DNA of 64,000 nt from Buxus sempervirens (Eukaryota; Streptophyta; Magnoliopsida; Buxales; Buxaceae): positions 10,901,888 to 10,965,887 of the forward strand of contig OX387186.1 of assembly GCA_947561395.2 (NCBI GenBank). The letters run 5' to 3'. Position numbers and translations under genes: made by a program. This document shows positions 8,212 through 42,662 of the stretch, piece after piece. Position 1 is the stretch's first letter; every line of letters begins with the position of its first letter. The notes beneath the pieces are model-generated. The model searched no databases. It saw only the letters and a program-made list of their open reading frames with translations, and had not been told where the DNA came from.

Positions 8212-8224
8212 GTCCAATCAGCTT

Positions 8225-17852: not shown

Positions 17853-17865
17853 GTCCAAAGAGATT

Positions 17866-18569
17866 CTGCATTAACCAAATTACAAAACTAACTTCTGATC
17901 AACAAATAAACAAATCATTAGAATCTACTACAACATTAAAGAAAAAAGGAGAGCAAAAAACTCCTCAAATTATACAATCCCAAGAAATAGATCTCCAAGA
18001 ATTAGGCTTCATAGTCCTAATTCTAAATGACACACAAACAAAAATGCCTCAGCATAGGAAATCGACACGAGAAACGAATATCTAACAACCAATAGAACAT
18101 TACTAATTTAGAAAATCAAATTTTTCAAAACAACCATACTTCAAACATCCAATTGAAAAGATAGCGTGTCAAGCAAAACCAAATCCGCATCAAAAAACCG
18201 GGACCAAGAGTAACGCGCACCCGATCTATATAAAATTTGGAGCTAAAACACTAGATCCGATAAGAATACAACAAAACTAAACGAAACCTTCACCAGAAAC
18301 TGAAAAACCTAAGACCGAATTAACAGATCTAATTCGGCGAACCAATCAGCTATTGTTGCCAAAGCGAATTACGAATTCACCATTAACAGATGCAAGCAAA
18401 GAACATTTTGAAAAAAATAGATATCACAGACTTCATAACCAGATCTAATGCTTCAAACCATGAACCTCAAGCATCAATGCAACCAAAAATCAAAGCGAAA
18501 AGGTTATCTCCTAAAAATCTTTCCAAACATGATTGCAGCACTTCCTAAAATACGGAGAGATTTACATAC
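17866..18569 (-). other. 5'UTR intron of intact RHM
   Basis: Donor ATCCT|GTATGTAAAT at 18569 and acceptor TTAATGCAG|AATC at 17866 on the minus strand define a 704-nt leader intron ending 13 nt before the ATG. The left RHM copy has it at the same position. Leader introns are common in highly expressed plant genes. Confidence 0.65.
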
Positions 18570-23872: not shown

Positions 23873-23877
23873 GATTG

Positions 23878-24966
23878 TGTTTACACCCTATATAACCGAC
23901 GAATAAGAAAAGGACACGTGGTGCCTAGGTGGCTTGGTTAGGCCACGGCCCGTAGACTTTGAAGGGTTGAGCCGACCACGTCAGCACGCATACAGAAGAA
24001 TGCGGTTCAAGCCACGCAAGCAAATAAGACAAAACCATAAATATCAGAAGATCGTGCCATCGGCCGTTCAAGAACAGAATTATTAGGTCATGGCCGGGCG
24101 GTTATCACTTTGAAACAGAGAACTGACGATAAACAACCGCCATGAAGATCGTGCGAGAGTAGGAAGTTGAGCAACCATCAAGGAGCGGCTATAAAAGGCC
24201 TCAATTCGAAGAGCTCGAGGACACAATCCACACAACCGCAACCGGTTATTATATTATTTTGATCATCCGTGATCCTTTATCCCCTCTAACACAGACGGAT
24301 AAACTAGGACTTCTCTCACTGCTTCCAGTCGCAGTGACATCTTCGACCCCTCTTTACTCCGATTAACACCAGAATCCTGCCACCGGAGAGTAAGTTGAGG
24401 CCGCCCCTGACTCGCAGTTCTGTATTTACGGAATCCCGAGCAGCCGGTCCCGAGACTCGCTCTGTTCACGCCAGGTGACTTGTGTATTTTCGGGTAAGCA
24501 GCAATCCAAGGTGAACCCCCTGAATCGACTTTGTAAGCAGCCGCCCCCTTCCTCCTGCGCTTATACCCGATTACGGCTATAAGACCAGGACAGGCCGGTC
24601 CTGCGAGCCCTGTCGGTTTTCTTTTGTACTTTTTGTTTCCATTTTGAGGATTATCTGTTGTCGCTTTCGGCTATTTGGCCGATTTTATAATAAAGGGATT
24701 TGTGTGCCGTTAGTTGCTTTTACTTTCAAACACTTACAAGAACCCGAAACGAAGACCGAACTCCTAGTCTTCATACCATCGCCTGACCGACTTTATTACA
24801 GGTGACTTGCAGTACGACTGAACCGATCCCGGTTCAGATTCGGAACAGGTGCCCGGGGTCAGGAATCGACTCGAAAATCTTTGTATCAAACGATACTGGC
24901 ACGCCCGCGTAGAGACACATCATCACCACAGACACGTGTCCACACCGGCCCATTTTTGGAGCAACA
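23878..24966 (+). repeat. 5' LTR
   Basis: This 1,089-bp LTR matches the 3' LTR at an offset of 15,493 bp with one difference found (CTGTCGG here, CTGTCAG in the 3' LTR, near 24615). It contains a TATA box (24190) and an AATAAA signal (24689), giving the usual U3-R-U5 layout. The spurious open frame at 24263-24469 is also present in the 3' LTR. Confidence 0.97.
24190..24197 (+). promoter_or_regulatory. LTR TATA box
   Basis: TATAAAAG sits in CGGCTATAAAAGGCC. Transcription would start about 30 nt downstream. The same box occurs in the 3' LTR near 39683 and could drive readthrough toward the downstream hydrolase gene. Confidence 0.65.
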
Positions 24967-24974
24967 TCCCTTTT

Positions 24975-24992
24975 TGGCACGCCCGGTGGGAC
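24975..24992 (+). other. Candidate primer-binding site
   Basis: TGGCACGCCCGGTGGGAC begins 8 nt after the 5' LTR. The TGG start fits pairing with a tRNA 3' CCA end. I have not identified the tRNA. A partial copy, TGGCACGCCCG, also occurs inside the LTR at about 24897. Confidence 0.5.
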
Positions 24993-25015
24993 ATTTAGTC
25001 TTTGAAAGAGCACTA

Positions 25016-26155
25016 ATGGCGGCAAGAAGAAGTACTCGGCATGCTGAAAATGCAGCGCCAGAGGAACCTGCCGAATCTCAGGTAAATCCTCTTTATGCTT
25101 CAGAGGTCCCGGAAGAAGGACCTTCGGGTTCTCAGCCGGACCTTAATGAGCGACTTATTCAGGCCATACAAGGTCTCAGCCAACAAATGGCAGGCTTTGG
25201 CCAGGGTATTAACAAAATTTCTTCTGATAATGGTAGAATCCTAGCGGTTTTACAGGAAGGTTTCTCTACAATGGCAAGACCGGTCATGATGACCGAACGA
25301 GCCGAAACATCGGCTGCTGGATCAAATGCTCATGAAAGGATAAATATCCCGGAGCAGCCACCGATCATGAACCTAGGTGTAAACGGCCGACACGAACAGG
25401 CCAACACCGCCGCTGTAAGAGGAGAAATACCTCCTGGTGTCCCAGTTCATCCCAATGTGCCTCCGATCGAGGTGCGACCCATGGGACAAAGGGAAGCACA
25501 GGAAAACCATAGAGAAGATATCGGGGTAAGAAATATGGCCGTAAACCGTAATTACATTCAAAATGTAATTCAAGAAATGATTGGAGATCAATATCACCGA
25601 CGAATGACTAGGCCAGTTTATAGGAAACCTTACCCAGGCTGGATTGACCAACAATTTGAATTCCCTAGGGGATACAAAATTCCCGAATTCACTTTGTTTT
25701 CAGGAGAAGGTCAACAATCTACTATTGAACACATTGGCCGATTTACGGTTCAATGTGGAGAGGCGTCCGGTAATGATTTCCTTAGACTTAGATTATTTGG
25801 AAACTCATTGACCGGGCAGGCCTTTACATGGTATATTACCTTACCGGCCAATTCAGTTACAAATTGGGGAATGATGGAAGAGAAATTCCATTCCCAATTT
25901 TATCGTACGGAGCCTGAAGTAACCATGGTTGATCTTGCCCGATTAAGACAACAACCGGGGGAATCGGCCGATAAATATATTGCTCGCTTTAAATATATGA
26001 AAAACAAATGCCGGATTCTTTTACCAGAATCGGAATTTGCAAATTTGGCGTTAAATGGACTACACTTTGAACTCCGAAAGAAATTCGAAGGTGAACAGTT
26101 CGAAGACTTATTTGAGTTGTCGGCCAGAGCCACCAAATACGAGTGGTTATTATAG
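25016..26155 (+). CDS. Retrotransposon Gag (ends at in-frame TAG)
   Basis: This encodes the structural capsid protein of the Tat element. It starts MAARRSTRHAENAAPEEP, and I chose the first ATG after the primer-binding site. The Retrotrans_gag-type core lies at about residues 220-375, with FTLFSGEG, LFGNSLTGQAFTWY and FHSQFY motifs, followed by LALNGL. The frame stops at TAG (26153-26155) after ...RATKYEWLL but stays open beyond it to 28603. Gag sequence therefore probably continued through this codon ancestrally, and the zinc-knuckle-like CKWHG...H....C motif lies downstream of it. Confidence 0.9.
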   Translation: MAARRSTRHAENAAPEEPAESQVNPLYASEVPEEGPSGSQPDLNERLIQAIQGLSQQMAGFGQGINKISSDNGRILAVLQEGFSTMARPVMMTERAETSAAGSNAHERINIPEQPPIMNLGVNGRHEQANTAAVRGEIPPGVPVHPNVPPIEVRPMGQREAQENHREDIGVRNMAVNRNYIQNVIQEMIGDQYHRRMTRPVYRKPYPGWIDQQFEFPRGYKIPEFTLFSGEGQQSTIEHIGRFTVQCGEASGNDFLRLRLFGNSLTGQAFTWYITLPANSVTNWGMMEEKFHSQFYRTEPEVTMVDLARLRQQPGESADKYIARFKYMKNKCRILLPESEFANLALNGLHFELRKKFEGEQFEDLFELSARATKYEWLL

Positions 26156-28603
26156 GAAGACAACGAAAAGAAAGTCTCATCTTACGGGTCTTATTACAAG
26201 GACCCGAACTTTGAATACGGAGTTGTAGAAGTCGTGGGAAAACAATCAATCACCTGCCCGATTCTTATCCGGAAAACCAAGGATACAGAGGCAACAAAGG
26301 AGACGAGTACTTTTAGCCGAAATTATTCCTTTGACATAAATAAGACGGCTGAAGTATTTGAATACCTCTTGAAACAGGGATTCTTCAGATTAACCAAAGA
26401 CCATCCTTTTATCCCCGCCAATGTGGCGGCCAAGGGTAAAGCTTGTAAATGGCACGGGGTGAAAACTCATGAAACTAATGAATGTACTGTGCTTCGTAAT
26501 GTGATACAGGAGAATATTGATAAAGGGCTCCTGAAGTTTGCAGAAACCGACAAGGAGAAGATGCAGGTTGACACACAACCATTCCCTAAAGAGGTGTCAG
26601 CAAATATGGTTACCATTGGGTTGCCAAAACGCACTCCAGCAGTTAAGATCGACCTGGATGGATCTTCCTCAGGGAAATGGGGGAAAACAGCACAACCAGT
26701 GCAGAACCAGGTGAATTTACGACCAAGGAACCATTGGAGGTATCCCCCTACACAAGGACGGTCATGGCATCAGGAGAGGAAAGGTGAAATCTGGGGTGAA
26801 TGGTGGCATAAGCCCAGACGCGAACCCAGAATGGAAGAAGACAGGAAACCAGAGCTCGATGAAAAAACAACAAAGAAATTGGTTTTGGTTCCTTCTGAAT
26901 TATCTTCCAATCAGGCTGCAACCAAAAAACGACTGGAAACGGTTGCTAAATCCTCAGAGGAGTCTTCCGTCAACAAAGATACATCATGCAAGATTCCGGA
27001 GAAAATAGAGATGTCACCAGGCCTCCTTTGCCAAGACTGCAAGCAAAAAGTAATAGCAGAATACCGGTATTCCCAATACAAAGGGAAATCAGTCAAGTAT
27101 GAAGATGCACGCCACACTCAGGGGGGCAAGAAACCCTTGTACTTAACGTCTGGTAGACAAGTAGGCTCGCCGACAAGAACGGCAGCCACCTACAGCTCCG
27201 CTAGGGATAGCGGCTACATGACTTACGAGCAATACAGGATGGTAAACGAGGTCAAACCCAGGATGGTAAAACCACCTATTATCCAGGATGGTCACTGGAA
27301 AAGATTGACTCATCCTAAATTTCCTTTTCATGCGCAGGCAAGTATCGCAGAACTGACCAGAACGCAGAAGCGACGCTGGCAGCGACAGCAAGCTAAGAGA
27401 CGATACCAGGAACAGAGTACTGGATCATCCGAGCCATATTGGTCGTCTAGGTTTGTGGCCAAAAGACGCATTCCGAAGCCACAAAGGCTCAAGAAGAGCC
27501 CGCCTGATTCACCAATCCCTCCAGAGACCACGACCGAGCATGATTCCAATGCAGTGACCGAAAGGTTGGTTTCGGACGAAGAATTGACGGATAATTTCGC
27601 CGAAGGAGAAGGAGAACAATTGTTAGTTGAACAAATGTTAACAGAGTACAGTAGGATCTCAACTCCTTCTACGGTAGAAATAACAGAGGAATTGACGCTC
27701 GAAACTCCCAAAGACGAGATTAGTGAGTCGCTGAGTCAACCTCCATTGAGTGCGGATGCATCAATCGCCGAAATCTGTTTCGGTCGGATGCCCCCGATAC
27801 CACTTGACTGTCATATGGTCCTCACTTTACCTATGACTTTTGGGGCCAGCATGGAGTTACCACGTTTAGAGGAGATCCAGGAGGAGGAAGACCCAGTAGC
27901 TTTGTATGTGATTGATCCAGAACATCTCGAAAAAGAGAAAAAAGACCAGAAACCGGCCGATGGTGACAAAATCGGTCTGGTGGGAGAGGTATGTTTCGTT
28001 GAACCATCCTTAACCATGACTCAACATCTCAAACCTTTATTTGTAAAGGCGCACATGAACGGGATCCCTATCAATAGAATTCTAATTGATAATGGGGCAG
28101 CAATAAATTTCATCCCAATATCCACATTGAAGAAATTAGGTAAGTCTTATTCGGATTTAATTTCTTCCGAAATCACCGTCACTAACTTTGCAGGAGGTAT
28201 TACAGGAACTAGAGGAATCCTCCCAATCGAACTAACGGTTGGGACACGGCAGTCTCTTACTGCATTCTTCGTAATTGAATCATCCGCCGGATACAACGCA
28301 TTGCTGGGAAGAGATTGGATCCATTCAAACAAATGTGTACCATCTTCTTTGCACCAATCGTTGCTGTTTTGGAAGGATGGCAAGACCGAAGAAGTAAAAG
28401 CCGACCAGCGGCCATTTGCCGTGGATTCCAATGCCGCACATGCATCCCTTTATAACGAAGGGGTAAAACCAATTTCATTTAGTGGATATGACAAGAATGG
28501 GCAGCCGATCACTTCAAGTTCGGCTATTCTACAAACGGCGCAACTACAGATTACAGAAGTAGCCGCAGTCGCCGAACTCAAAGAACTTCCAAATGATGGT
28601 TAA
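26156..28603 (+). CDS. Gag C-terminus/linker and aspartic protease region
   Basis: This is an open frame in the same frame as gag, directly after its TAG; there is no stop from 26156 to 28601. It begins EDNEKKVSSYGSYYKDPNFE, typical of continuing Tat gag. A CKWHG-x5-H-x4-C zinc-knuckle-like motif follows near 26450. Then comes a long, charged, low-conservation linker. The retropepsin domain is near 28080, with the active-site-like ILIDNGAAINFIP and the downstream LLGRDWI. The aspartate motif is D-N-G rather than the usual D-S/T-G; related plant elements also vary here. The only start codon in the track is non-ATG, so expression needs TAG readthrough, reinitiation or a spliced RNA. Confidence 0.85.
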   Translation, partial: EDNEKKVSSYGSYYKDPNFEYGVVEVVGKQSITCPILIRKTKDTEATKETSTFSRNYSFDINKTAEVFEYLLKQGFFRLTKDHPFIPANVAAKGKACKWHGVKTHETNECTVLRNVIQENIDKGLLKFAETDKEKMQVDTQPFPKEVSANMVTIGLPKRTPAVKIDLDGSSSGKWGKTAQPVQNQVNLRPRNHWRYPPTQGRSWHQERKGEIWGEWWHKPRREPRMEEDRKPELDEKTTKKLVLVPSELSSNQAATKKRLETVAKSSEESSVNKDTSCKIPEKIEMSPGLLCQDCKQKVIAEYRYSQYKGKSVKYEDARHTQGGKKPLYLTSGRQVGSPTRTAATYSSARDSGYMTYEQYRMVNEVKPRMVKPPIIQDGHWKRLTHPKFPFHAQASIAELTRTQKRRWQRQQAKRRYQEQSTGSSEPYWSSRFVAKRRIPKPQRLKKSPPDSPIPPETTTEHDSNAVTERLVSDEELTDNFAEGEGEQLLVEQMLTEYSRISTPSTVEITEELTLETPKDEISESLSQPPLSADASIAEICFGRMPPIPLDCHMVLTLPMTFGASMELPRLEEIQEEEDPVALYVIDPEHLEKEKKDQKPADGDKIGLVGEVCFVEPSLTMTQHLKPLFVKAHMNGIPINRILIDNGAAINFIPISTLKKLGKSYSDLISSEITVTNFAGGITGTRGILPIELTVGTRQSLTAFFVIESSAGYNALLGRDWIHSNKCVPSSLHQSLLFWKDGKTEEVKADQRPFAVDSNAAHASLYNEGVKPISFSGYDKNGQPITSSSAILQTAQLQITEVAAVAELKELPNDG

Positions 28604-31600
28604 ACCATCAGAAGTCGCAGAAGCCGTCGTAAGAAAGATGACGGCTTACATGCAGGAAGAAAAGATAGGGAAGTTGCAGCAGGAACAGGAATGGCTGGAA
28701 AACGGCGAGATAATGATAAACTCGGCCGAATTCATTAATGAACAAGAAGATGAAAGGGTACAAGACCGGAATGAGATTACTCTCGCCGACCTACAAGCAG
28801 CACCAGCCAAATTAGAAGACCTTAAGGTAGATACCCAAGATCCATTAGAAGAAATCAATCTGGGGACAGAGGCGGAACAGAAGCCTGTTTTCATAAGTAA
28901 GCTATTACCACCTTCGGTCAGAAAAGAAATGAGACTATTGTTAACCGAATATTCGGACTGTTTCGCCTGGACTTACCAAGAGATGCCAGGATTGGACCGA
29001 AAAATGGTAGAACACAGGCTCCCTATCAAGCCAGAATTTAAACCATTCAGACAACCTTCAAGGAGGATGGGTGACGACGTGGTATGTAAAGTAAAGGTTG
29101 AAATAGAACGGCTTTTATCAGCCGGGTTTATTAGGCCGATACGATATGCCGAGTGGCTTTCGAACGTTGTACCCGTAATTAAAAAGAATGGTCAAATTAG
29201 GGTATGTATTGATTTCCGCAATCTGAATTCTGCAACGCCCAAGGACGAATATCCAATGCCGATCGCAGACCTCTTAGTTGATAATGCATCACGGCATAAG
29301 TTTTTGTCATTTATGGACGGCCACTCCGGATATAATCAAATCTTCATTGCCGAGGAAGATGTAGCAAAAACGGCGTTTCGATGCCCTGAAGCATTAGGAA
29401 CTTATTGTTGGGTGGTTATGCCGTTCGGATTAAAGAATGCTGGCGCAACCTATCAAAGGGCAATGAATCTTATCTTCCATGACATGATCGGTCAAATACT
29501 TGAGGTATATATTGACGATGTTGTGATAAAATCTCAAACCGAAATGGACCATTTGCAGCATTTAAAACGGGTTTTTGAACGACTTCGTAAGTACAGCTTG
29601 AAGATGAATCCATTAAAGTGTGCTTTTGGTGTATCGGCCGGAAATTTCCTAGGCTTTCTCGTACACCAGAGAGGAATTGAGGTCGATAAAAATAAGGCAA
29701 AATCGGTCATAGAGGCCAAACCGCCAGCTAATAAGAAACAGCTACAAAGATTGCTCGGCCAGGTGAATTTCTTGAGAAGATTCATTTCAAACCTGGCCGG
29801 GAAGATCAGGGTCCTATCCCCATTATTGAAAATCAAGAATACTGAAGAGTTTATCTGGAATGAAGACCATCAGGCCGCTTTTGAAGGTATCAAACGATAT
29901 TTGGTAACTCCACCGGTTTTGGTGCCACCTTCAAAAGAACGGCCGCTAAAACTTTATATAGCGGCTTCGAGCGATTCAGTTGGAGTCTTGTTGGCCCAAG
30001 AGAACGATCAAGGATATGAGCAGGCTATTTATTACCTCAGTAGATTCTTGACTCCGGTGGAAGAAAGGTACACTAATCTAGAGAAGTTGTGTCTAACACT
30101 CTATTATGCAGCTACCAAATTACGACATTATCTCCTGTCGGCCAAAGAAATTTTCGTCCTAGCAGCCACTGACGTGGTCAAGTACATGCTCACTCGGCCT
30201 ACAGTGAGTGGTAGGCTCGGAAAATGGACCCTGACTCTGATGGAGTTTGACTTTAAATATGTACCGCAGAAAGCGGTAAAAGGACAAGCATTGGCCGATT
30301 TTTTGGCCGATCATCCATCTAGTGTGCAGGAAAAAGAGTTGGATATCCCATTATTTCATGCTAGTTTTTGCTATGCCGAATTCCAACCATGGACACTGGA
30401 ATTTGACGGTTCAAAGACAGAATTTGCTTCTGGGATCGGAGTAGTAATAACTTCACCCACTGGTGACAAGCACGAACATGCATTTCAGCTTGAAGAATTA
30501 TCCACAAACAATCAAGCAGAGTTTGAAGCTACAATTATAGGGTTGGAAATTCTATGGGAAATGGGTGCTCGAGCAGTTAATATTGTTGGAGATTCCCAAC
30601 TCGTCTTGAAGCAAATGGAGGGCATATATAACTGCAATAGCGAGTCATTAGTACTATTGCTACGAAGGGCAAGATTCCTGGCCCAGCAGTTCAATAGAAT
30701 TGAATTCGAACATCGGCCAAGGAAGGAAAACTATCAAGCTAATGAACTGGCCCAGTTGGCATCTGGACTCAGGCTGCGCGATTCAGTTAGAACAGTGACC
30801 ATACAATCTCTCCCCAACTCCGAGAAAAGACCATTTCTGGTGGATTCACTAGCATGTTGTAACCAGACAATAAGACAGGATTGGAGAGGTGAGATCTGGG
30901 GATATCTTAAAGATCCTACTATAAAGACTAGCAGATCGACCAAAAGGAAAGCTGCCAACTATTTTATTCTGGGCGATGAGCTATATAAAAAGAGTATTGA
31001 AGACATCCCACTTAGATGTGTCAACCCAACAGAAGCCATGTTAATAATGGCCGAGGTACACGAAGGGATTTGTGGTGCACACCAAGCAGGAGTCAAGATG
31101 CGATGGTTATTACGTCGGCATGGTTATTACTGGCCGTCAATCTTGAAAGATTGTCAGATGTTCGCTGCAGGATGTCAAGAATGTCAGAAACATGGACCAG
31201 TTCAGAGGGTGCCGGCATTTGAATTGCAAACCATAGTCAAGCCATGGCCCTTCAGAGGGTGGGCAATGGATTTGATTGGAAAAGTGTATCCTCCTTCGAC
31301 TGGTCTACACAACTTCATCATAGTAGCCACTGATTACTTCACCAAATGGGTGGAAGCCAAACCTTTGAAAAAAGTGGAGCAAACGGATGTGATTGAGTTT
31401 ATCAGGGAACAGATAATTCATAGATACGGTATCCCCGAAACCATCACGACCGATTCAGGTACCGTTTTTGTAGGACAAGAAGTGACGGAATTCGCCAAAA
31501 CATATGGCATCAGAATGATTCAATCTACACCCTATTACGCACAGGCAAATGGGCAAGCTGAAGCCACAAATAAGGTGTTGAAAAATATCCTAAGAAAGAT

Positions 31601-32168
31601 GATTGAGGATAAGCCAAGAAGTTGGCATAAACTCTTATCTGAAGCATTGTGGGCGTATCGAATGTCTTACAAGACGTCTATTGGAACTACCCCTTTTGCC
31701 TTAACCTTCGGTCATGAGGCAGTTATTCCGGCCGAAATCACGGTCAAATCGTTAAGGGTGGCTATTCAGAATAATTTCACTCCCAAGGATTACACGGAAG
31801 CAATGTTAGTCGAATTAGAAGACTTGGGAGAGATGAGGAGGCTAGCCCTGGATCGGCAGAGAGCCCTCAAGCAAAGGATTGCAAGATCCTATAATCGCCG
31901 AGTGAAACACAAATCATTCGCTCAAGGAGATTTAGTGTGGAAAACCCTGCTGCCAATAGGGAAAAAGGATTCTTTGTATGGAAAATGGTCCCCCACGTGG
32001 GAAGGACCATTACAAGTCAGCAAGGTATTGCCCGGGGGGGCATACCATATACAGTCTTTGGATGGCCAAGAAAAGAAGATTATCAACGGCCAGTTTTTGA
32101 AACGGTACTTTCCTACTCTATGGGAAAGCCGCGAAATCAATAACCAACCTGAGGAAAATCAGGAATAA
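28593..32168 (+). CDS. Pol: RT, RNase H, second RNase H, integrase
   Basis: This 1,191-aa frame is +1 relative to the protease frame and overlaps it by 11 nt (ATGATGGTTAA). The reverse transcriptase has FMDGHSGYNQI, MPFGLKNAGATYQ and the catalytic YIDD near residue 305. The first RNase H (about 450-560) includes LKLYIAASSDSVG. A second, archaeal-type RNase H has LEFDGSKTEFASG (near 600) and GDSQLV (near 667). Integrase follows with an H-H-C-C zinc finger (HQAGVKMRWLLRRH...CQEC, from about 830) and the D-D-E triad (WAMDLIG, TTDSGTVF, QAEATNK; about 893, 954, 990). All catalytic motifs appear intact. The dual RNase H assigns it to the Tat lineage. Confidence 0.96.
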   Translation: MMVKPSEVAEAVVRKMTAYMQEEKIGKLQQEQEWLENGEIMINSAEFINEQEDERVQDRNEITLADLQAAPAKLEDLKVDTQDPLEEINLGTEAEQKPVFISKLLPPSVRKEMRLLLTEYSDCFAWTYQEMPGLDRKMVEHRLPIKPEFKPFRQPSRRMGDDVVCKVKVEIERLLSAGFIRPIRYAEWLSNVVPVIKKNGQIRVCIDFRNLNSATPKDEYPMPIADLLVDNASRHKFLSFMDGHSGYNQIFIAEEDVAKTAFRCPEALGTYCWVVMPFGLKNAGATYQRAMNLIFHDMIGQILEVYIDDVVIKSQTEMDHLQHLKRVFERLRKYSLKMNPLKCAFGVSAGNFLGFLVHQRGIEVDKNKAKSVIEAKPPANKKQLQRLLGQVNFLRRFISNLAGKIRVLSPLLKIKNTEEFIWNEDHQAAFEGIKRYLVTPPVLVPPSKERPLKLYIAASSDSVGVLLAQENDQGYEQAIYYLSRFLTPVEERYTNLEKLCLTLYYAATKLRHYLLSAKEIFVLAATDVVKYMLTRPTVSGRLGKWTLTLMEFDFKYVPQKAVKGQALADFLADHPSSVQEKELDIPLFHASFCYAEFQPWTLEFDGSKTEFASGIGVVITSPTGDKHEHAFQLEELSTNNQAEFEATIIGLEILWEMGARAVNIVGDSQLVLKQMEGIYNCNSESLVLLLRRARFLAQQFNRIEFEHRPRKENYQANELAQLASGLRLRDSVRTVTIQSLPNSEKRPFLVDSLACCNQTIRQDWRGEIWGYLKDPTIKTSRSTKRKAANYFILGDELYKKSIEDIPLRCVNPTEAMLIMAEVHEGICGAHQAGVKMRWLLRRHGYYWPSILKDCQMFAAGCQECQKHGPVQRVPAFELQTIVKPWPFRGWAMDLIGKVYPPSTGLHNFIIVATDYFTKWVEAKPLKKVEQTDVIEFIREQIIHRYGIPETITTDSGTVFVGQEVTEFAKTYGIRMIQSTPYYAQANGQAEATNKVLKNILRKMIEDKPRSWHKLLSEALWAYRMSYKTSIGTTPFALTFGHEAVIPAEITVKSLRVAIQNNFTPKDYTEAMLVELEDLGEMRRLALDRQRALKQRIARSYNRRVKHKSFAQGDLVWKTLLPIGKKDSLYGKWSPTWEGPLQVSKVLPGGAYHIQSLDGQEKKIINGQFLKRYFPTLWESREINNQPEENQE

Positions 32169-32997
32169 AATAAAATATCTACTGTTCGGTACCTGCAACG
32201 CCAAATAAATGGCATTGTCAAATCAAGGAGCCGATATACAGTGCGGATTAGACTAAAATAGGAAATCTCTTCGAGATCCGCTCAAGACCCATTGATCTTC
32301 TTTCTAACGATCGGTCTATAAATACTAAGGCAATGCTCGCCATTCTTCCAAGAAAGGAAAGAAGAAAAGAGATGGCGAAAGATCAAGAGCCGACGACGGG
32401 AACGATCAAGGAAGAAGAAGTCAACAAAGCCGATGACTTCATGAGAATGGGCGGAATCGGAAAAGGCGACTCTACTCTCGCTGACCCCATCACGGCTGGT
32501 CTTCGACCACCGAGTTCTGGGTAGAGACGAGAGTTCTCTCCTCCGACCAGCATTTACGCCGGTCGGAGTAGTCGCCATCCCTCCCTCTTTCCTCTTGCCC
32601 CTTTGATTAAATTGCCCCTCGCTAACACCATCTATGGTTGGAGTGCGGAGCAATTTCAGGGGCATATCGGCCCCGGTTGTATTATCATACCCCGGCTGAT
32701 ACATCTGGCCTTGATTGTATGAAAGAGCCAGAAGAGCTCGGCTTTGGTTGTATGAAAGATCAATGTTGAAATAAAAACATTCTTATTTTGTTTGTTTAGT
32801 TCTAATCTTTCTATAACGAGCAGTAGATATGAAATAAAACAAGTAGGTTACGCATCCAATAAGCATGCAAAAAACTACCGTCTAATTAAAGCCGAGTAAT
32901 CGGCTGAATAAAGTTTAAAATGCCAGCCATATGGCATTATCATGAAAAAGTGAATACCGAACAAACGGTATGATTGTTTAGAAAAGGTTTTATAACC
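32169..32997. other. Non-coding stretch between integrase and antisense gene A
   Basis: The two open frames here (32282-32704 minus, 32333-32524 plus) overlap each other and show no known motif. The minus strand probably holds 3'UTR of antisense gene A. A donor-like AAAG|GTAAGG spans its stop codon, so a further exon is possible. Confidence 0.35.
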
Positions 32998-35752
32998 TTA
33001 CCTTTCGAACCAAGTCTTAAATCGGGCATGATCGTACTTCGCCCGCTCCAATAATAACTGCATCTCAGCTCGACGAACCTCCACCTCCCTTTCATCCCTC
33101 ATATGCTCCTCCAAACGGTGACGGCTCGATTCGATCAGCAGCATCTGAGTCTGGATAGATTCTTTAAGATGATGTTCCTCAGATTGTAGCCGAGATAAAT
33201 CGTCCGAAGCAGTATCTGATGGATCACCAGCAATAGAGCCCTGGCCAAGAGAATTTTTATGAAGAGACCACCTCAAAGTCTCCAAATGGCGATTATGACC
33301 ATATACAGCACGAATTTCTTGACGAAAATCGGAACATCTCACGTTGACAGAACGGAGAAAGTCCATGGCTTCCCTTAGCTGCGGCACGGCACTGTAAAAA
33401 CCAAGCATGGACATTAGCCGATCTCCGGTTGAACGATCCCCGCGAGAATTCATCACTATGGCTCTGCATATCAACAATCGAACTTCTGACAAATCTTCGT
33501 CAGAAAGTTCTTCAGGCTGACGAAGAACAAAAGAGCGGAGTTCGTTCCAACTGTCAAAATCCGGAAGAAATGCCGGAAGAAGGTCATGAAATTCGGGAGA
33601 TGAAAGACAACGGTCTACTTCCATGAAGCAAAACCTGACAAATCCGAAGCAAGTACCAGGGAGGGGTCTATAATTTTCTTCCTTGGCCACCGGAATTTTT
33701 GGCTCAGAAGGTAATTCACCAGAAGAGGAACCAGAGGAAGCAGCACCAGGAACAGTGGATGGACCAGCTTCATCAACCACGGGACGAGGGAAGAAAGGAG
33801 CCGGCCTAGGTGCACTAGGCAACGGATCGGTCGAAGGAGTGACAAATCGAGTTGAGGTTGGGGGACTAGCATAATGAAATGCACGAGGAGGAGTCGGCAT
33901 GGGAGTTGATCTACCACTACTCCCACAATGAACGGGAGGCCCATGCTGAGGACGAAATAAATCGATATCTTCTTCCTCGTCCGAAGAATCATCAGACAAG
34001 ACGACACGCTCACCTGGACGCCGAACTCGGAGTCGCAAACTGGAGCGAGTAACGTAAGCACGACCGTCCGATACCTCACCAATCTTCCGCTTTTTCAAAG
34101 GCGACTGTTTGGAAGAAGGGTTGCTCCGACTGGCAGAAACCTTGGAAGGTCGCCTCCAGTTAAAGGTGACCGACGTCTTGGATTTCTTTTTCTTACTCTT
34201 CACATTGGAGGATCGAGGATCATCTAATAAAGAAAAAGAAAGTCAGACGCGACCGAATAGAGAAGATCAATTTACAAAAACATAAACGAAAGTTACCTGG
34301 GTAACGGGCCTCATAATACCCGCGGAGTTTGCCTATACTCGCTATATCGACCGCATTCGGTCGAAATAGCGCAGTATACGACTCTGCATCAAGCCGGACA
34401 AAGTCAGAGTAAAGCTGAGACCACCATCGACGAAAGGAAGGTTCAACTGAGGATTCCCGGGGAAGAGGATAATTGCGGAAGCGAGCAGAAAGATCGCGGA
34501 ACCGAGAAGTTGCTAATGACAGGTAACTAGGGCTCAAAACAGACCGAGAGCCACCATTGGTAGATGAAAACACCACCAGAGGAATGCCTTGGCCATAACC
34601 AAGTTGCCGACTGACGAAATGCGGCAGATATATTTCCACCCCTTCTCTTCTAGAAGTGGCAGGAGCATCTCGGTTGTGCAAGCCAAAAGGAAGCTCACGG
34701 GCAATAAGAAAACTGGCCGTCGCACGTCGGCGAGCTTCTGGAGAAGAATTGATGGCAGCATAAAGGGGAGACCCATGAAATTGGTCTAGAGAAAAGTGAT
34801 GGAATAAAGGAGGATTATTTTCCTGTAGACCTACCAGGAAGAAATCAAGAACAGCCGTGAAAGATAATTGAATAGGTGTTGCGGTAAGCCAGCGACGGCC
34901 GGCATAGTAATAATTAGGAAAAGGATTGTCTACGGCTGTACAGAAAAAGCCGGGAAAGTATTCATAAAACCAGAATTGTAAAAACCAAAGAGGGCCACTG
35001 GCAACCCCTAATCGGCCGAAAGACAGACTGTGTAAACCACGGTAGACCTGGCTGAGAAAGAAAGGGGCTAGAGCCAAACGGCGACCATGGGCCAGGGCTA
35101 CCGCAATACCGGCAAACTCCTTTACCATCTGAGCAGATGGGCCACAGCAGAAAAAATGGCAAAGAAAAAACAGCAAGAAAGAGCAATGCTCTTGAAGGGA
35201 AGGAGGATTATCGTCATTTGGAACTCGCTCAGCACGAACAAAGGTGCCGAAAGCAGAAGAAGCATGAGCGGTGTTAAAAACAGAAGATGAGAAAACAGAC
35301 AGGGTAGAATCTACTTCTTCCCCAAGGACTGAAAGACCTGTGATGCAGCAAACATCCAACAGGGTCGGGGTCATAGGCCCATGGTAAAAGGAGAAGGTGT
35401 TAGAACCCCGACACCAGAAAAATGAGGCCACTCCAAGCAAAATAGGATTGAAGGGAATGTAGAAGGTGGAATAGAAGATCATCTCCGCCAAACCTAGCCT
35501 AACCCAGGTCTCCAAATAATAAGACCGTAAACGCTCAACCCATTTGTTCCACTCAGGGGAACACTTAGGCCAGGAGCGAGGAAGAGTAATCAGATTACCC
35601 CATCTCACAGGATCAGAGGCGCTGATCAAATGGTAGGAAGAATGAAGGACCTTTGGAGCCTTTTCCGTCTCGTCATCAGTGCATGGACCAAGAACAGGAC
35701 CATCCTCACCATCAAGGAACAGATTTAAGTCGTTAGGGTTGTCGTCCGCCAT
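32998..35752 (-). CDS. Antisense PMD-domain gene A (2 exons, open frame)
   Basis: This gene encodes an 893-aa protein, opposite to gag-pol. Exon 1 (35752-34297) and exon 2 (34223-32998) join in phase 1 across a 73-nt intron (CCCAG|GTAACT ... TTTATTAG|ATGATC), and the frame stays open. Exon 1 looks like the plant mobile domain (aminotransferase-like PMD). It shows WNKWVERL, FYHGPMTPTLLDVCCITG, LALAPFFLSQVYRGL, GPLWFLQFWFYEYFP and LPHFVSRQLGYGQGIP. Exon 2 carries basic clusters KSKKKKSK and KKRKIGE (possible nuclear signals), a Ser/Pro/acidic stretch, and a C-terminal segment likely to be coiled coil. PMD proteins occur in host factors (MAIN/MAIL family) and in transposons. Its role here is unknown; it could affect silencing or nuclear import. 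The clean joined frame implies selection or recent acquisition. Confidence 0.8.
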
Positions 35753-35812
35753 GATCGATACTAGAAACCAGAGAAGAAAAGCTCGAAGGAAGAAGAAGAC
35801 GAAACGAAACAA

Positions 35813-36075
35813 GGAAACGTCTGCAGAAAGGAGAGCTCGTAATTATTCAAAATATCGAGAAGGGCGGTGATAAGACTGCTGTCTTCCCGAAAAAGAGGTT
35901 GATAGTACGATCGCCTTCCCGAAGAAATCGAAACGGCGGCTCGATATCTTCTCGAAAAAAGCGTTTTTAAGGGTAAAGATCATACGGATGAATCAAATTG
36001 AAAAAGGAGCCGATTCTGACGGCTAGGACAGTTGGCAAAATGGATTCCAAAAAAGAGTTTAATTCATTAAATGCT
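35813..36075. promoter_or_regulatory. Spacer between antisense genes A and B
   Basis: About 260 bp separate the 3' end of gene B from the start of gene A, and must hold gene A's promoter and leader if it is transcribed separately. No convincing TATA box was chosen. Confidence 0.3.
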
Positions 36076-39000
36076 TTACAAAGAAGTATTTAAAATGGCA
36101 GAATATATACGGTCAAAAGACTCTTGGGCAGACCGTCTTTCTTCAACCAAAGTGGACCGAAGCAGAGAGGAACCTCGAGCCAATTCTATCTCCGATTTCA
36201 GCTCGTGGGAGATCTCGATGCACTGACGGGTCTTCTCTTTCAAGGTGTCATCAATAGAGTTATGTGTACGAAGAAGTTCCTCCCGTTGATTTACAAGATC
36301 AGATCTTCTAGATTGAAACTCAGCAATTTGACGGTCGACCGCCGAAATGTCATCATTAATAATATTTATACGGTGGGCCGCATCAGTAAACTGATGATGA
36401 CAAATCTCGCGCTCATTCCTCAACTGTTGCAAAAGTTGATATCGGCCATCAACAGAATCGGCCGTATTACTCATCTCATGTAATTTGGCCGAAAGATGGT
36501 CAAAGACAACTTTATAAGGGTAGAGGAAAGTAAGTTGAGAGAACACCGATTTGACCTCAGGAGATACAGAAGACAGATCCCGAAGTTGTGCAGCCAATGC
36601 CATCACACGGGTAAGAGTCTCTTCGGAAATACCAATTATTCCTGGAGAGAGGAGGCGAATAGTTTCCGATCGGATACTCGTTGGAGATAAGGGCTCAGAT
36701 GAACCGTCAGATGAGAGAGTAGAACAGACATCGTTCAATATAGTATCCAATCGACCATCACCAGGGAGTGGTTCCGCAGCAAAAGAAGGAATAAGCGATG
36801 AACTGGAACTCCCCAAGTCAATAAGCTTTTGCTTCGAACGATTAATATCAACTTCCGCTGCTGTAACAGGAGAATCAGAAGGAATATCGGCCAAGGCAGA
36901 AAGGCTGGAAGGCCCAACAGAGATAGTAGACGTTGCAATCCCAACTAACGGTAAGGTTGCACTCTGCTCATATCCAGGAGGTAAGTCGGGAGACGGACTT
37001 CTTTCTGGAGAAACCTCTCGAATGGATAAATGCTCCTGATCTTCAGGGAGTGCTAAAGGGGCTGCTGCAGCGACACTACCAGGAGAATCCAATGCTTCGG
37101 TAGGAACAGAGAAATTGGCCGAATCAAAAACAGACATGGGATCAACAACCAGATCCGAAGAAGATTCCATGACATTGGAAGAAAAAGCAGTTGGACCCGA
37201 GGAACTCGCAGCCTAGAAGAATGAGGTGTCAGAAAGAAAAATCAAACTAAGAAGATGAGCAATAAAGATTCAGTACCTTCCGAGGACGCCGTCGTAGTGG
37301 GACATCATCGGGATCCTCATCATCTTCATACGGGACAATCGAGAGAGGACATTCTGGTGACAACGCGTCATCTTCGGCCAATTCCCCGGAAGGAGAAGTA
37401 TGAGCCTCCAAGGTAAGCAACGGCGTTTCACCGGGTGGCCGTATACCTGAACTAATATCTTCTTGGACAGGTTCAGGCAAAAGTGCAAGTGGACTAGCCT
37501 CCAAAGCTAGAGGCGGAACTTTACCTAATGACAGAAAAATTGAGTGAACATCAAACGGATCAGAAGCAAGAAAGATAAGAATATACCTTCTTGGATAGGT
37601 GAAGCCGGAGGCTCAAACAGACCCATCCTTTCCAGATAATAATCGGCCGAATAACGGCAGATATTGTTCCACAACGATTTCCACCAAACACGGAAATCAC
37701 AGCGACAGTCGTAACGACGAGGAAGAAAGGGAAGTCGAAATTCAACGGCAGCAGCTTTATAAGCATCTTCCATGTCGGCAGCTTCGGCTACAGTGACAGA
37801 CGGTCGATCAACAGGTTTGGCATTAACTGTGAACAAACCATCTACTTCAAATAAGGGAATCCTCTGTTCGCATTGAAATTGCCGGCCGACACAATTGGGC
37901 AAGTATACTTCATACCCCGGTTTCTTGTTAATTGACTTCACAGCATAATTTAAATTTCGAGCCTTCAGAAAACTGGCCCAGATAAGATGCTGCTCGTCAG
38001 TTATGTCATCCACCATTGAAAGGAAACCGGGAGAATTTGAGGAGACTTCAAAAGGAGGAGTAGGAAAATAATGAAGAAACGGAAACATTCGGAAAAAGAT
38101 AGAACAGCTGGTGTGGCAGCCAAACAGGCATGGCCACCAAAATCAGAAGGCATGTTAGGAGTGATCGGTACTTGAGCATAAAACTGGGATGGAAAATAGT
38201 GATAAGCCCAAAATTGGAGGAACCACAATGGCCCCCCAGGATTTTGAAGGGAGCCATGAACAAACTCTTGAAGTGAACGGTATAAAACCGATAAAAAGTA
38301 AGGAGCAAGGGCAACTTCATACTCACCCAGAATTAACTTGACCAATGAGTAATACTCTTTGGTAACTGCTTGGGCCTTGGAACAGAATACAAAGTTGCAG
38401 AAAAAATAAAGGAGAAAGTAGAAGTGTTCCACCTCATCTGCATAAGCTGGAGGCCTGAATTTGGCACAGTCCTTGATGTAGGACCGATAAGATGAATGAA
38501 TTGAAGTCGGTGGAGATTCGCTCTCTGACGGTGGAGGTTCATGCTCGGACAGCACAATACCTTTTTGCCGAGAAGATCGTGCCTTCTTGAAAGCCCTATT
38601 ATTCTTCGTTGAGGGTTGCTTTCTTTTCTTTTCTAATTCTTTCCCTTTGTCACCCACCTCCATCGGAGGTAAATGCTGATAATCCTTAAGGTCCGCCATA
38701 CCGACCCGGATCTCATGACCAGTCGCGAAGAAACCAGTAATAAAGCAGATATCCAGGACAGTAGGAGTCATCATTCCGCAGGGGAAATTGAAGGTGTTGG
38801 TATGAGTATTCCAGAATGAACTCATGGCGCAGAGAAGATCGCGATTGCAGGGAATAGAGTGACACGAAAAGATAATCATGTCATAAATACCTGTCTTACG
38901 CCAAACAACGGCAAAACGATCCTTCATGCGGTCAACCCAAGCTTTCCATTCAGGGTAAGCAGTCGGCCAATTTCGAAAGCGAAGAGGTAGATGGAGATTC

Positions 39001-39146
39001 TCTTCGTCAGTAAAGAGTAAAGGGCCCCTTACTTTATCAGTCGGGGCCTCCAAAGGAGCATTACTGGCACAAATGAAGGGGCCTACAGATATCGAGTTGC
39101 CGAAAACTTCGACTGTAGAAGGATAGTGTATGAGATTGCCCGTCAT
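36076..39146 (-). pseudogene. Antisense PMD-domain gene B (3 exons, one frameshift)
   Basis: This is a diverged homologue of gene A in tandem with it. Exon 1 (39146-37587) has WKAWVDRM, MMTPTVLDICFITG, VALAPYFLSVLYRSL, GPLWFLQFWAYHYFP and, after a frame change at about 38060-38100, LPNCVGRQFQCEQRIP. Exon 2 (37524-37277) and exon 3 (37212-36076) join by GT-AG introns in phases 1 and 0. The C-terminus of exon 3 is strongly coiled-coil-like (QLRNEREICHHQF...EIELARG). The single shift within LSFSECFRFF...HYFPTPP is the only lesion I see, so the gene is recently broken or uses an unseen splice. Compared with gene A it has an extra basic insert (KELEKKRKQPSTKNN...) and one more intron. A TATA-like CTATAAAC lies at about 39215-39222. 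Confidence 0.72.
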
Positions 39147-39360
39147 TGAAGACAAAGAGGAAGAAAAAACAAACAGCCAAAAAGAAAGAGTAAAGTAAAA
39201 TCTTGGCTGTGGTAGTTTATAGAAGGCGAAATCCGAAAAGTTTCATCATTACGATCGTAGGGAAACGGCGCGATCTTTTCACATCAAACGACGGACAAAT
39301 TTTGAAAAACCCAAAAATACTTACTCATCACACCGACCGATGACGGCGTCACAAGTAAGT

Positions 39361-39370
39361 AGGGGGGCAA
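39361..39370 (+). other. Polypurine tract
   Basis: AGGGGGGCAA directly precedes the 3' LTR, the normal position for plus-strand priming. The upstream bases AAGTAAGT extend the purine-rich stretch. Confidence 0.75.
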
Positions 39371-40459
39371 TGTTTACACCCTATATAACCGACGAATAAG
39401 AAAAGGACACGTGGTGCCTAGGTGGCTTGGTTAGGCCACGGCCCGTAGACTTTGAAGGGTTGAGCCGACCACGTCAGCACGCATACAGAAGAATGCGGTT
39501 CAAGCCACGCAAGCAAATAAGACAAAACCATAAATATCAGAAGATCGTGCCATCGGCCGTTCAAGAACAGAATTATTAGGTCATGGCCGGGCGGTTATCA
39601 CTTTGAAACAGAGAACTGACGATAAACAACCGCCATGAAGATCGTGCGAGAGTAGGAAGTTGAGCAACCATCAAGGAGCGGCTATAAAAGGCCTCAATTC
39701 GAAGAGCTCGAGGACACAATCCACACAACCGCAACCGGTTATTATATTATTTTGATCATCCGTGATCCTTTATCCCCTCTAACACAGACGGATAAACTAG
39801 GACTTCTCTCACTGCTTCCAGTCGCAGTGACATCTTCGACCCCTCTTTACTCCGATTAACACCAGAATCCTGCCACCGGAGAGTAAGTTGAGGCCGCCCC
39901 TGACTCGCAGTTCTGTATTTACGGAATCCCGAGCAGCCGGTCCCGAGACTCGCTCTGTTCACGCCAGGTGACTTGTGTATTTTCGGGTAAGCAGCAATCC
40001 AAGGTGAACCCCCTGAATCGACTTTGTAAGCAGCCGCCCCCTTCCTCCTGCGCTTATACCCGATTACGGCTATAAGACCAGGACAGGCCGGTCCTGCGAG
40101 CCCTGTCAGTTTTCTTTTGTACTTTTTGTTTCCATTTTGAGGATTATCTGTTGTCGCTTTCGGCTATTTGGCCGATTTTATAATAAAGGGATTTGTGTGC
40201 CGTTAGTTGCTTTTACTTTCAAACACTTACAAGAACCCGAAACGAAGACCGAACTCCTAGTCTTCATACCATCGCCTGACCGACTTTATTACAGGTGACT
40301 TGCAGTACGACTGAACCGATCCCGGTTCAGATTCGGAACAGGTGCCCGGGGTCAGGAATCGACTCGAAAATCTTTGTATCAAACGATACTGGCACGCCCG
40401 CGTAGAGACACATCATCACCACAGACACGTGTCCACACCGGCCCATTTTTGGAGCAACA
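39371..40459 (+). repeat. 3' LTR
   Basis: This 1,089-bp LTR is nearly identical to the 5' LTR (one base differs). It ends GAGCAACA and is followed by the GATTG target duplication at 40460-40464. Confidence 0.97.
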
Positions 40460-40464
40460 GATTG

Positions 40465-40999: not shown

Positions 41000-41610
41000 G
41001 TAAGTTGTTCCGGGTATGATTTCCTTTCGCTTCACATTACGGTGAAGATTATGAAGCTTAAATCCCCTGAAAAGATGGGTTTGATGGAGAATTTCTTGAT
41101 TTTGTGACTCATTTCTTCAAATTCCTTTCTGTTCTGGATTATACGTTTATATTTAAATCGGTTGCCATTTGTATTTACTTCCCGAGAATCGTTAAGACGG
41201 TTGAATCTGATCCCTGATTCTTGCTAGTTTGTTTTTGTACTGCCGTCTCATTTTCCTATAGGCGATGAGTTTGTTGAATTATATGCTAGTAGTCTTCCAA
41301 ACCCCATTACAATTCATAGAGGTTTCTGAGATTATTATTATTAGTAATTTATCTTGCTTGATTCGCCGAATGCTTTTGGGTTTCGGGTTTTCTTCATTCT
41401 TATCTATTTATTTTTTGAATATTTCACGCCCCTGTGAGCGTAAACTTTGGTGTTTGATGAAAAAATCTTCTCGTTATTAGCTTGAAGCCTTCATTATCTG
41501 TAACAAATCGTCAAGAAAACTCAGGGACTGCCGTGAAGTCCTTACATTTTGCCCTATTTATCTCAAATTTTGAAGAACGGATCAACAAATTAGGCTTTCT
41601 GTATTTGCAG
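41000..41610 (+). other. Probable 5'UTR intron of the hydrolase gene
   Basis: A donor AATCTT|GTAAGTTG at 41000 and an acceptor TATTTGCAG|TA at 41610 would remove 611 nt and leave the ATG 2 nt into the next exon. The upstream leader would lie within about 40780-40999. Confidence 0.55.
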
Positions 41611-41612
41611 TA

Positions 41613-42662
41613 ATGTTAAGGCGAGGGAACAAACAAATGAAGCCATGGTGCAACATGCAGAACATTCAGGTTTCAGCTCTTACTGTGTCTGTGATCCTAG
41701 TTCTCTTTTCCTTGGGAATGTTATTTAGCTACAAGGGAGGGAGACCCAGTTCTTCATTTAATCGTCCAAAGTTAAAATGGAACAGCTTTCAATCTTCAGT
41801 TCAATTACACCCGACTTTAGAGTTCAGGAATGGAACAGATGTAATATCACAAATACCCAATTCACCCAAGGCAGTTCTCTTTCTGGCGCATGGGTGCAAT
41901 GGTAAAGCTGTTAACTTCTGGGACAGATCTCCTTGTTGCCCAAATTGCATTGGTTTGCCAGAGGAACGGCTAATTGTCCTTCACGCTTTAGCACAAAAGT
42001 TTGCTGTCCTTGCTATATCAAGTGCAGGGAGATGCTGGACATTTGGGGAAGAAAGGTTAATTGTAAAAGGAATTATTAGATGGTGGGTTGAGAAAAACAA
42101 GCTTGAAAAGCTTCCTCTTGTTGCTTTAGGAGCTTCCTCTGGTGGGCATTTTGTTTCTGTTCTAGCCACTGATATGATATTTAGTAGTATCACACTCATG
42201 ATTGCAGAAGGGATGTTTGGCCAAATGGAGGTTCCAGAATACTACCCACCTACCCTCTTCGTGCACATGCCCAAAGATCGTGCAAGATCGCAGATGGTAG
42301 GTGAAAACATGGAAGCTTTGAGGCAGAAAGGTATCGCTGTTGCTGAGATTAAATGTATGGAGTTTCCTTTGTCCCCAAACTTTTTTTCGGACAGAATTCC
42401 CGGTGTTGATGAGACTGTCTCTACAAAGTTGTTTGAGCTGTTCAGGGACAAGGTCTTCATTGATGAGAACAGATATATGATTAAGGATGGACGTGCGACA
42501 CGTTGGAAAGAAGCTCTTAAAGAGAGAAAAGCTCTTTTTCCAAAAAATTATGAGTGGATCCATCACATTCAGGAGGAACTGAATCTTGCATTTGCATATC
42601 ATGAAATGACTAGCTTGCAGTCTGATCAGATCTTTCAGTGGTTTGAATCTCACATAAGCTAA
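41613..42662 (+). CDS. Membrane-anchored alpha/beta-hydrolase-like protein
   Basis: This single-exon gene encodes 349 aa. A short basic N-terminus is followed by one hydrophobic segment at about residues 19-40 (VSALTVSVILVLFSLGMLF), as in a type II membrane protein with a lumenal or extracellular catalytic part. The alpha/beta-hydrolase core includes FLAHGCNGKAVNFWD near the oxyanion position, a Cys pair (SPCCPNC), and the nucleophile elbow GASSGG (Ser about 175). Plants have conserved uncharacterised proteins of this type; I do not know the substrate. The ATG was chosen as the first after the leader-intron acceptor. The neighbouring Tat element ends about 1.15 kb upstream of it and so lies close to its promoter. 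Confidence 0.85.
   Translation: MLRRGNKQMKPWCNMQNIQVSALTVSVILVLFSLGMLFSYKGGRPSSSFNRPKLKWNSFQSSVQLHPTLEFRNGTDVISQIPNSPKAVLFLAHGCNGKAVNFWDRSPCCPNCIGLPEERLIVLHALAQKFAVLAISSAGRCWTFGEERLIVKGIIRWWVEKNKLEKLPLVALGASSGGHFVSVLATDMIFSSITLMIAEGMFGQMEVPEYYPPTLFVHMPKDRARSQMVGENMEALRQKGIAVAEIKCMEFPLSPNFFSDRIPGVDETVSTKLFELFRDKVFIDENRYMIKDGRATRWKEALKERKALFPKNYEWIHHIQEELNLAFAYHEMTSLQSDQIFQWFESHIS

Follow-up and report, generated by a model that had tools for sequence, protein, structure and literature searches.

A tandem pair of intron-bearing antisense plant mobile domain genes, apparently long kept, in a Tat-like retrotransposon family of Buxus sempervirens

Within a stretch of 64,000 nt of Buxus sempervirens contig OX387186.1 (hereafter the window, whose numbering is used for all positions), a long terminal repeat (LTR) retrotransposon spans positions 23878-40459. 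Inside this element, between its integrase and its 3' LTR, two genes lie in tandem on the minus strand, here named gene A and gene B, each of which contains introns and encodes a protein with a plant mobile domain (PMD; Pfam PF10536). Comparison with copies and diverged relatives from the same genome makes it very probable that A and B are an accessory protein pair under selection, and in the light of these comparisons the pair reads as a long-kept accessory module and not as a recent capture.

An earlier sequence-only reading of the window had claimed two antisense PMD genes, and the profile search agrees. Against PF10536, whose gathering cut-off is 34.9 bits, gene A reached 108.7 bits (E=4.7e-31, covering 1-346 of 347 positions), and the 5' piece of gene B, which in the window copy changes frame inside the PMD, reached 101.5 bits (E=7.2e-29, covering 1-189), its 3' piece alone giving 12 bits; gene B of a further copy (L040) scored 111.5 bits over 1-296 of 347. 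The open stretches on the minus strand measure 540, 414, 381 and 378 codons; the longest one produced by 300 mononucleotide shuffles had 233. The A and B proteins are related to each other (BLASTP E=1e-39, 32% identity), and for the 3' half of the PMD a score of 131 was obtained, which none of 500 shuffles equalled, the best of them reaching 50. Gene A runs from 35752 to 32998, has one intron of 73 nt and yields a spliced frame of 893 aa, while gene B extends from 39146 to 36076 and is split by introns of 62 and 64 nt. Their parts, in the order of transcription, are as follows.

39216..39221, minus strand: TATA-like box, 75 nt upstream of the gene B start (sequence)
37587..39146, minus strand: gene B first coding exon, PMD with basic insert; frame change within 38145-38003 in this copy
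37525..37586, minus strand: gene B intron 1, 62 nt, GT-AG, phase 1
37277..37524, minus strand: gene B next exon, acidic linker
37213..37276, minus strand: gene B intron 2, 64 nt, GT-AG, phase 0
36076..37212, minus strand: gene B last exon, Ser/Pro-rich stretch, then tail with weak coiled-coil/SMC (structural maintenance of chromosomes) matches; stop at 36076
34297..35752, minus strand: gene A exon 1, PMD, E=4.7e-31 (Pfam, open reading frames)
34224..34296, minus strand: gene A intron, 73 nt, GT-AG, phase 1 (splice sites, copies, relatives)
32998..34223, minus strand: gene A exon 2, basic linker with SPLKKRKIGE resembling a nuclear localisation signal (NLS), acidic/Pro-Ser stretch, two predicted long helices

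All three introns are of the GT-AG type, with 31.5-32.8% GC and 50-53% T as compared with 45-52% GC in the exons, and in both genes a phase-1 intron follows shortly after the PMD, the two positions lying no more than about 10-13 residues apart where the sequence is unconserved. Downstream of the PMD the two proteins differ. A linker that is both basic and acidic had been claimed for each of them, which holds for A (basic, then acidic) and fails for B, whose linker is acidic and whose basic patch lies in the insert inside the PMD. Homology between the C-terminal tails was detected neither by BLASTP nor by profile comparison; between A exon 2 and the last exon of B, 4 of 500 shuffles were as good, a likeness perhaps due to Ser/Pro composition. 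The tail of A was modelled as two long helices with a mean predicted local distance difference test score (pLDDT) of 61, and the tail of B gave weak coiled-coil/SMC matches below cut-off. In the heptad test 53 and 39 of 500 shuffles did at least as well, a weak result, so that the coiled-coil-like C-termini described earlier for both proteins are plausible and not proven. An identity of A or B as Transposase_28 was rejected, as neither matched PF04195; NCBIfam gave only matches below cut-off, and no relatives were found in viral contigs, prokaryote contigs or plasmids.

The search for further copies covered the window's own 676.5-Mb genome, one plant genome, and its counts comprise the best-scoring candidates only, all of them being lower bounds. 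Further genomic copies of both frames, on which the sequence-only reading depended, were found, with 88 scored copies of A and 115 of B. In 73 of the 88 scored A copies (the window's included) a scored B lies upstream of A on the same strand within 9 kb, at a distance of 3.3-3.5 kb in 69 of these 73 pairs; a B on the opposite strand occurred in none. A scored integrase follows downstream of 65 of the 88 A copies and 78 of the 115 B copies, in all such cases on the opposite strand. This co-occurrence of A and B, together with the orientation of the integrase, identifies the pair as a regular part of a multi-copy family and not as an accident of a single insertion.

Selection and intron retention were followed in a set of 30 loci including the window copy (435 pairs) and in a five-copy set made up of the window and four divergent copies (L047-L050). 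The GT-AG boundaries of the A intron are kept in 30 of 30 loci, the spliced 893-aa frame of A is without premature stop in 27 of them, and each of the three introns retains its GT and AG in every locus covering it, the four divergent copies included. The mean ratio of nonsynonymous to synonymous differences per site (pN/pS) across the 30 loci was 0.116 in exon 1 and 0.242 in exon 2 of gene A and 0.322 in the last exon of gene B, and the A intron diverged by 0.044 per site as compared with 0.04-0.06 at silent sites. Within the five-copy set, pN/pS ranged from 0.21 to 0.48 across six exon pieces, B exon 1, measured in this set only, giving 0.24. The wrong frames of the gene strand gave 0.70-2.19, the annotated frame being lowest. 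Judged by these ratios, the substitution patterns in A and B are those of purifying selection on the proteins. That introns are retained at all is probably explained by their orientation: the spliceosome does not read the reverse complement of an intron, and as the genomic RNA of the element carries just this reverse complement, it offers no splice substrate and antisense introns survive. The earlier argument that such introns can be kept thus predicts a persistence of GT-AG, which is what both the copies and the diverged relatives display.

The diverged relatives, families S (L064) and T (L065), were inspected for context in one copy each, as were the families Y, Z and W considered below. S and T contain both genes in the same order and strand as the window pair, with protein identities of 73% (S) and 57% (T) for gene A and of 61-70% (S) and 50-54% (T) for gene B. 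Both tails are recognisable in both relatives, that of B in T only as short pieces, and the A intron and B intron 1, the two introns checked, hold their positions in S and T alike, again bounded by GT-AG. Beyond S the family pol was found on the opposite strand, 75-90% identical, by which S is an element of the same design. Since A and B are both present in S and T, their duplication is older than the divergence of S and T. In families Y (L051), Z (L052) and W (L053), for each of which one stretch of about 10 kb was read, there is only one PMD gene, encoded on the other strand than the retroelement polyprotein next to it. The Tat domain order, checked among these three in Y only, is present in the pol of Y, whose PMD gene is one intronless frame of 970 aa; intron content hence differs between antisense PMD genes.

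A tree of PMD proteins comprised 21 of 25 extracted proteins (L058_U, L045_B, L001_X and L048_B were excluded), the included L040_B ending with about 20 residues read from its intron. Within it, A, B, S and T form one clade as against Y, Z, W and X (support 99/98), and gene B forms a clade inside this group (100/100). L057_Z, L063_Z and L056_V group with family Y despite their labels, and X (L054), a partial PMD, sits on a long branch; some long branches meet in this tree, that of X with the A-B group among them, and call for caution. The claimed duplication and divergence thus agrees with A and B clustering among the sampled PMDs of the genome, while the claim that the element captured a PMD gene finds no support: with antisense PMDs in three other families and a duplication older than the S/T split, the PMD gene was probably resident before it was duplicated. 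The simplest history would be that of a resident, intron-bearing antisense PMD gene which was tandem-duplicated, whereupon the copies took on, or diverged to, different tails and both proteins stayed under selection. In which direction PMDs once passed, from host gene to Gypsy or the reverse, is left open by Ikeda et al. 2017 (PMC5418596). Apart from these families, a group of loci was recorded (L001-L005, L054) with five scored PMD loci that have frames of 236 aa and the best Pfam scores among the 117 that were scored; in L054, 9.9 kb gave no match to the element pol and a DUF1985 match below cut-off. These are possibly host or DNA-transposon PMD-C genes.

The element carrying the pair has the following further parts.

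23873..23877, plus strand, with its second copy at 40460-40464: target site duplication GATTG, 5 bp (flanking sequence)
23878..24966, plus strand: 5' LTR, TG...CA ends, 1089 bp, single mismatch against the 3' LTR
24975..24992, plus strand: putative primer binding site TGGCACGCCCGGTGGGAC (read by eye after the 5' LTR)
25016..26152, plus strand: gag, Retrotrans_gag E=2.5e-13; in-frame stop in this copy, open elsewhere (Pfam, open reading frames)
26156..28603, plus strand: C-terminal part of gag and protease frame, protease matches below cut-off (Pfam, open reading frames)
28563..32168, plus strand: pol with reverse transcriptase (RT), RNase H, second RNase H (RVT_3) and integrase (Pfam, open reading frames)
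39353..39370, plus strand: polypurine tract (sequence preceding the 3' LTR)
39371..40459, plus strand: 3' LTR, 1089 bp (LTR comparison)

The TG..CA LTRs, the target duplication, the gag and a pol with integrase after RT/RNase H are those of a Ty3/gypsy element, and Pfam places the pol domains in the order RT_RNaseH (459-562), RVT_3 (614-732) and H2C2 (821-878), so that an additional RNase H is located between RNase H and integrase. An extra RNase H at this place is described as the mark of angiosperm Tat elements, be they Ogre or Retand (PMC6317226), and by its pol domain order the element is a Tat-type Ty3/gypsy retrotransposon. The placement of both genes inside a Tat element, as claimed earlier, is confirmed: they lie past the integrase and before the 3' LTR, antisense to pol, and are enclosed by the LTRs and the 5-bp duplication. 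The two 1089-bp LTRs differ at one site (24615), which at plant substitution rates of 1.3e-8 and 7e-9 per site per year corresponds to approximately 35,000-66,000 years; the insertion is hence young. Tandem repeats were not found inside the element at default score, and no relatives of its pol were found in prokaryote or viral contigs.

Regarding the integrity of the family, the gag frame of the window measures 449 aa, and a 1265-aa frame without stops in the match was counted by eye in 30 of 150 scored gag matches, the remaining ones being shorter, longer or interrupted, by which decay is common. About 31 of 123 scored integrase copies (by eye) show the 1201-aa pol frame with no stop in the match, so that the frame difference separating protease from pol seems to be characteristic of the family. 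Gene B of the window changes frame in the overlap 38145-38003. Splicing as the cause was considered by listing the GT/GC-AG introns that would join both frames, and rejected, as the strongest-looking acceptors would delete the LxATPxxLSF motif common to gene A and as 91 of 115 scored copies read through in a frame of at least 530 aa (17 of these 91 with a stop elsewhere in the match, by eye). A frame of at most 441 aa is present in 15 of the 115, the window's included, and 9 are intermediate. The frame change is therefore read as a defect of the window copy or an assembly error. With gag and gene B interrupted, the window copy is probably not autonomous, though copies open at these places exist.

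Several observations weigh against the view of A and B as a regularly maintained, selected pair or against the role proposed for them below. Within the family, 15 of the 88 scored A copies are without a scored B, and the 123 scored integrase copies divide, among the scored matches, into 56 with both genes, 22 with B alone, 9 with A alone and 36 with none of the two; genes missing beside an integrase are accounted for in part by best-candidate scoring and decay, and true losses are possible. The window copy itself has gag and gene B interrupted, and the family pol was not found in the 3.3 kb fetched past the pair of T. Two of the divergent copies, L047 and L048, are without an exact TATA box before gene B and carry TTATAACA instead. 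No PDB sequence matched the PMD of gene A, and a two-sequence AlphaFold model of the PMD was poor (pLDDT 31). With respect to selection, the opposite-strand frame sharing codon positions gave a pN/pS only slightly higher than that of the annotated frame (0.15 versus 0.12 for A exon 1, 0.32 versus 0.24 for B exon 1), the other opposite-strand frames lying at 0.78 or more, and the overall level alone would as a consequence not tell the strand. As the copies are related and their pairs non-independent, pN/pS is used here as an indication of direction and not for probabilities. Finally, the introns (0.11-0.19) and the A-B spacer (0.18) of the five-copy set fall below most silent sites (0.17-0.33), for which reason they may not be simply neutral in this set, either by a constraint of their own or by alignment effects.

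What the pair may do was approached from its gene structure and motifs. The window, L049, L050, L064 and L065 share a TATAAA box that precedes the start position of gene B by 70-76 nt, while none was seen in the spacer before gene A. The TATA-like box beside gene B suggests an internal antisense promoter, as in Grande gene23 (PMC7264820). A loose six-frame scan found the SPLKKRKIGE-type motif of A in 4 of 6 related loci and the EKKRK motif of B in 5 of 6, T having neither; both motifs may act as nuclear localisation signals. The proposed mechanism builds on the standing two-gene antisense accessory module that this Tat-lineage family carries. Gene B would have a promoter to itself, located immediately inward of the 3' LTR (given the TATA-like box in most relatives examined), and gene A would be transcribed from another start or within a longer transcript. 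The two products would enter the nucleus by means of their NLS-like motifs and form a hetero-oligomer through their PMDs and helical tails, which would copy or poison the host PMD complex (MAIN-MAIL1-PP7L in Arabidopsis) and so relieve silencing of the element. If the host complex is mimicked by such a hetero-oligomer, two diverged PMD proteins encoded together would be expected. We give this explanation as a whole, a standing module that interferes with host PMD silencing, an even chance; a nuclear regulatory role of A and B appears on balance probable, and specific interference with the host PMD pathway, proposed by analogy, is tentative and somewhat doubtful. A stricter version, in which A and B would be an obligately paired, diverged PMD heterodimer made from a spliced antisense unit, act as dominant decoy of the PMD-phosphatase pathway and be the counterparts of two Gypsy-only clades, is clearly unlikely.

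An alternative which we regard as rather unlikely is that the PMD proteins serve the life cycle directly, in the nuclear entry of the pre-integration complex or the choice of a chromatin target, and not in counter-silencing. The NLS-like motifs and predicted helical tails would suit such a role as well, and accessory-factor roles were proposed for antisense proteins, that of Grande from maize being nuclear (PMC7264820); however, the present evidence contains no tie of A or B to integrase. As to origin, A and B might have arrived separately, for example by recombination of two Tat elements with different PMD genes, which would explain tails without detectable homology and would accord with the Gypsy-only clades PMD-A1 and PMD-A2 if these correspond to the two genes (PMC5418596); the search of one plant genome only also leaves room for it. 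It is nevertheless improbable, considering that A and B cluster as against Y, Z, W and X (99/98) and share a phase-1 intron within about 10-13 residues just after the PMD. Still less probable is an antisense region acting mainly as RNA, be it duplex RNA or small interfering RNA (siRNA), with the proteins being secondary. This idea, raised in PMC7264820, fits the antisense orientation and the report that in tea PMD genes harbour 175 phased siRNA loci (PMC10673657), but selection acts at the protein level (pN/pS 0.12-0.32 across the 30 loci, as compared with 0.83-2.19 in the wrong gene-strand frames) and splicing leaves an open A frame in 27 of 30 loci. That A and B were picked up passively along with host DNA and are now decaying, as the interrupted gene B and gag of the window might suggest, has a nearly negligible probability in view of their selection, their long retention in S and T and the gene B frame of at least 530 aa in 91 of 115 scored copies.

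Returning to the pair as a selected accessory module, its relevance is threefold: it provides a selected, intron-bearing substrate for the counter-silencing idea, its shared intron and fixed order offer a genealogical marker for tracing PMDs between hosts and elements, and it documents introns kept through many rounds of reverse transcription in genes antisense to a retrotransposon.

Elsewhere in the window, tandem-duplicated genes lie on the minus strand at 5695-8234 and 15541-17875 (DNA 86-94% identical), which we take to resemble plant rhamnose synthase; in the copy at 5.7-8.2 kb the frame is split, and a repeat inside it is offset by 193 bp. An open reading frame of 362 aa (41574-42662, plus strand), about 1.1 kb past the 3' LTR and without Pfam match at E 0.01, is possibly a host gene near the insertion, and at 47588-48053 there is a short array of repeats offset by about 100 bp.

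PMD-bearing Gypsy elements and antisense open reading frames in Tat elements are already known. A tandem, intron-bearing antisense PMD pair was not recognised in any description met in the literature search, the Steinbauerova 2011 survey lying outside that search, and the two clades that Ikeda et al. 2017 describe as exclusively Gypsy, PMD-A1 and PMD-A2 (PMC5418596), may already contain both A and B. Retand, Grande, RIRE2 and PvRetro13 resemble the present element in their long region between pol and 3' LTR with antisense frames, some of them SMC-like (PMC7264820, PMC11963269), SMC/coiled-coil features being reported for those of PvRetro13 and Retand, and for Grande gene23 an own promoter and a nuclear product are described in the same two sources. 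The antisense frames of Retand encode Transposase_28 (PF04195) in 97% of clusters (PMC11963269), whereas A and B are without PF04195; the terms PMD, plant mobile domain and intron are all absent from the main text of this 2025 Retand survey. In the whole genome 0 of 20 scored candidates matched PF04195, a result which does not show its absence as the control also matched nowhere.

The host PMD-C proteins MAIN and MAIL1 interact with PP7L as well as with one another and take part in transposable-element silencing (PMC8616336, PMC7156037); element-encoded PMDs were suggested as a counter-silencing strategy (PMC8616336), and the same was speculated for PMDs captured by Mutator-like (MULE) elements (PMC5418596). 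A and B are likewise two PMD proteins, as MAIN and MAIL1 are two that act together. They differ in being element-borne and in having linkers and predicted helical tails. The messenger RNA of HBZ from human T-cell leukaemia virus (HTLV) is spliced. HBZ is likewise an antisense accessory gene in a retroelement (PMC11963269), its protein and host being unrelated, so that it serves as an analogy only.

Among the closest known systems are also the Ogre elements, PF10536 being present in 57% of them (Neumann et al. 2019, PMC6317226). Ogre elements have a gag-pro/RT spacer of 274 bp on average (PMC6317226), whereas here the frames overlap by 41 nt, and for an extra 5' open reading frame no room exists here as gag starts 50 bp after the LTR. 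With the extra frames of PMD-bearing Ogre/Gypsy elements A and B thus share a PF10536 domain encoded by a Ty3/gypsy element, from which they differ as a tandem, antisense and diverged pair with one and two introns, respectively, that is kept across the family and two relatives.

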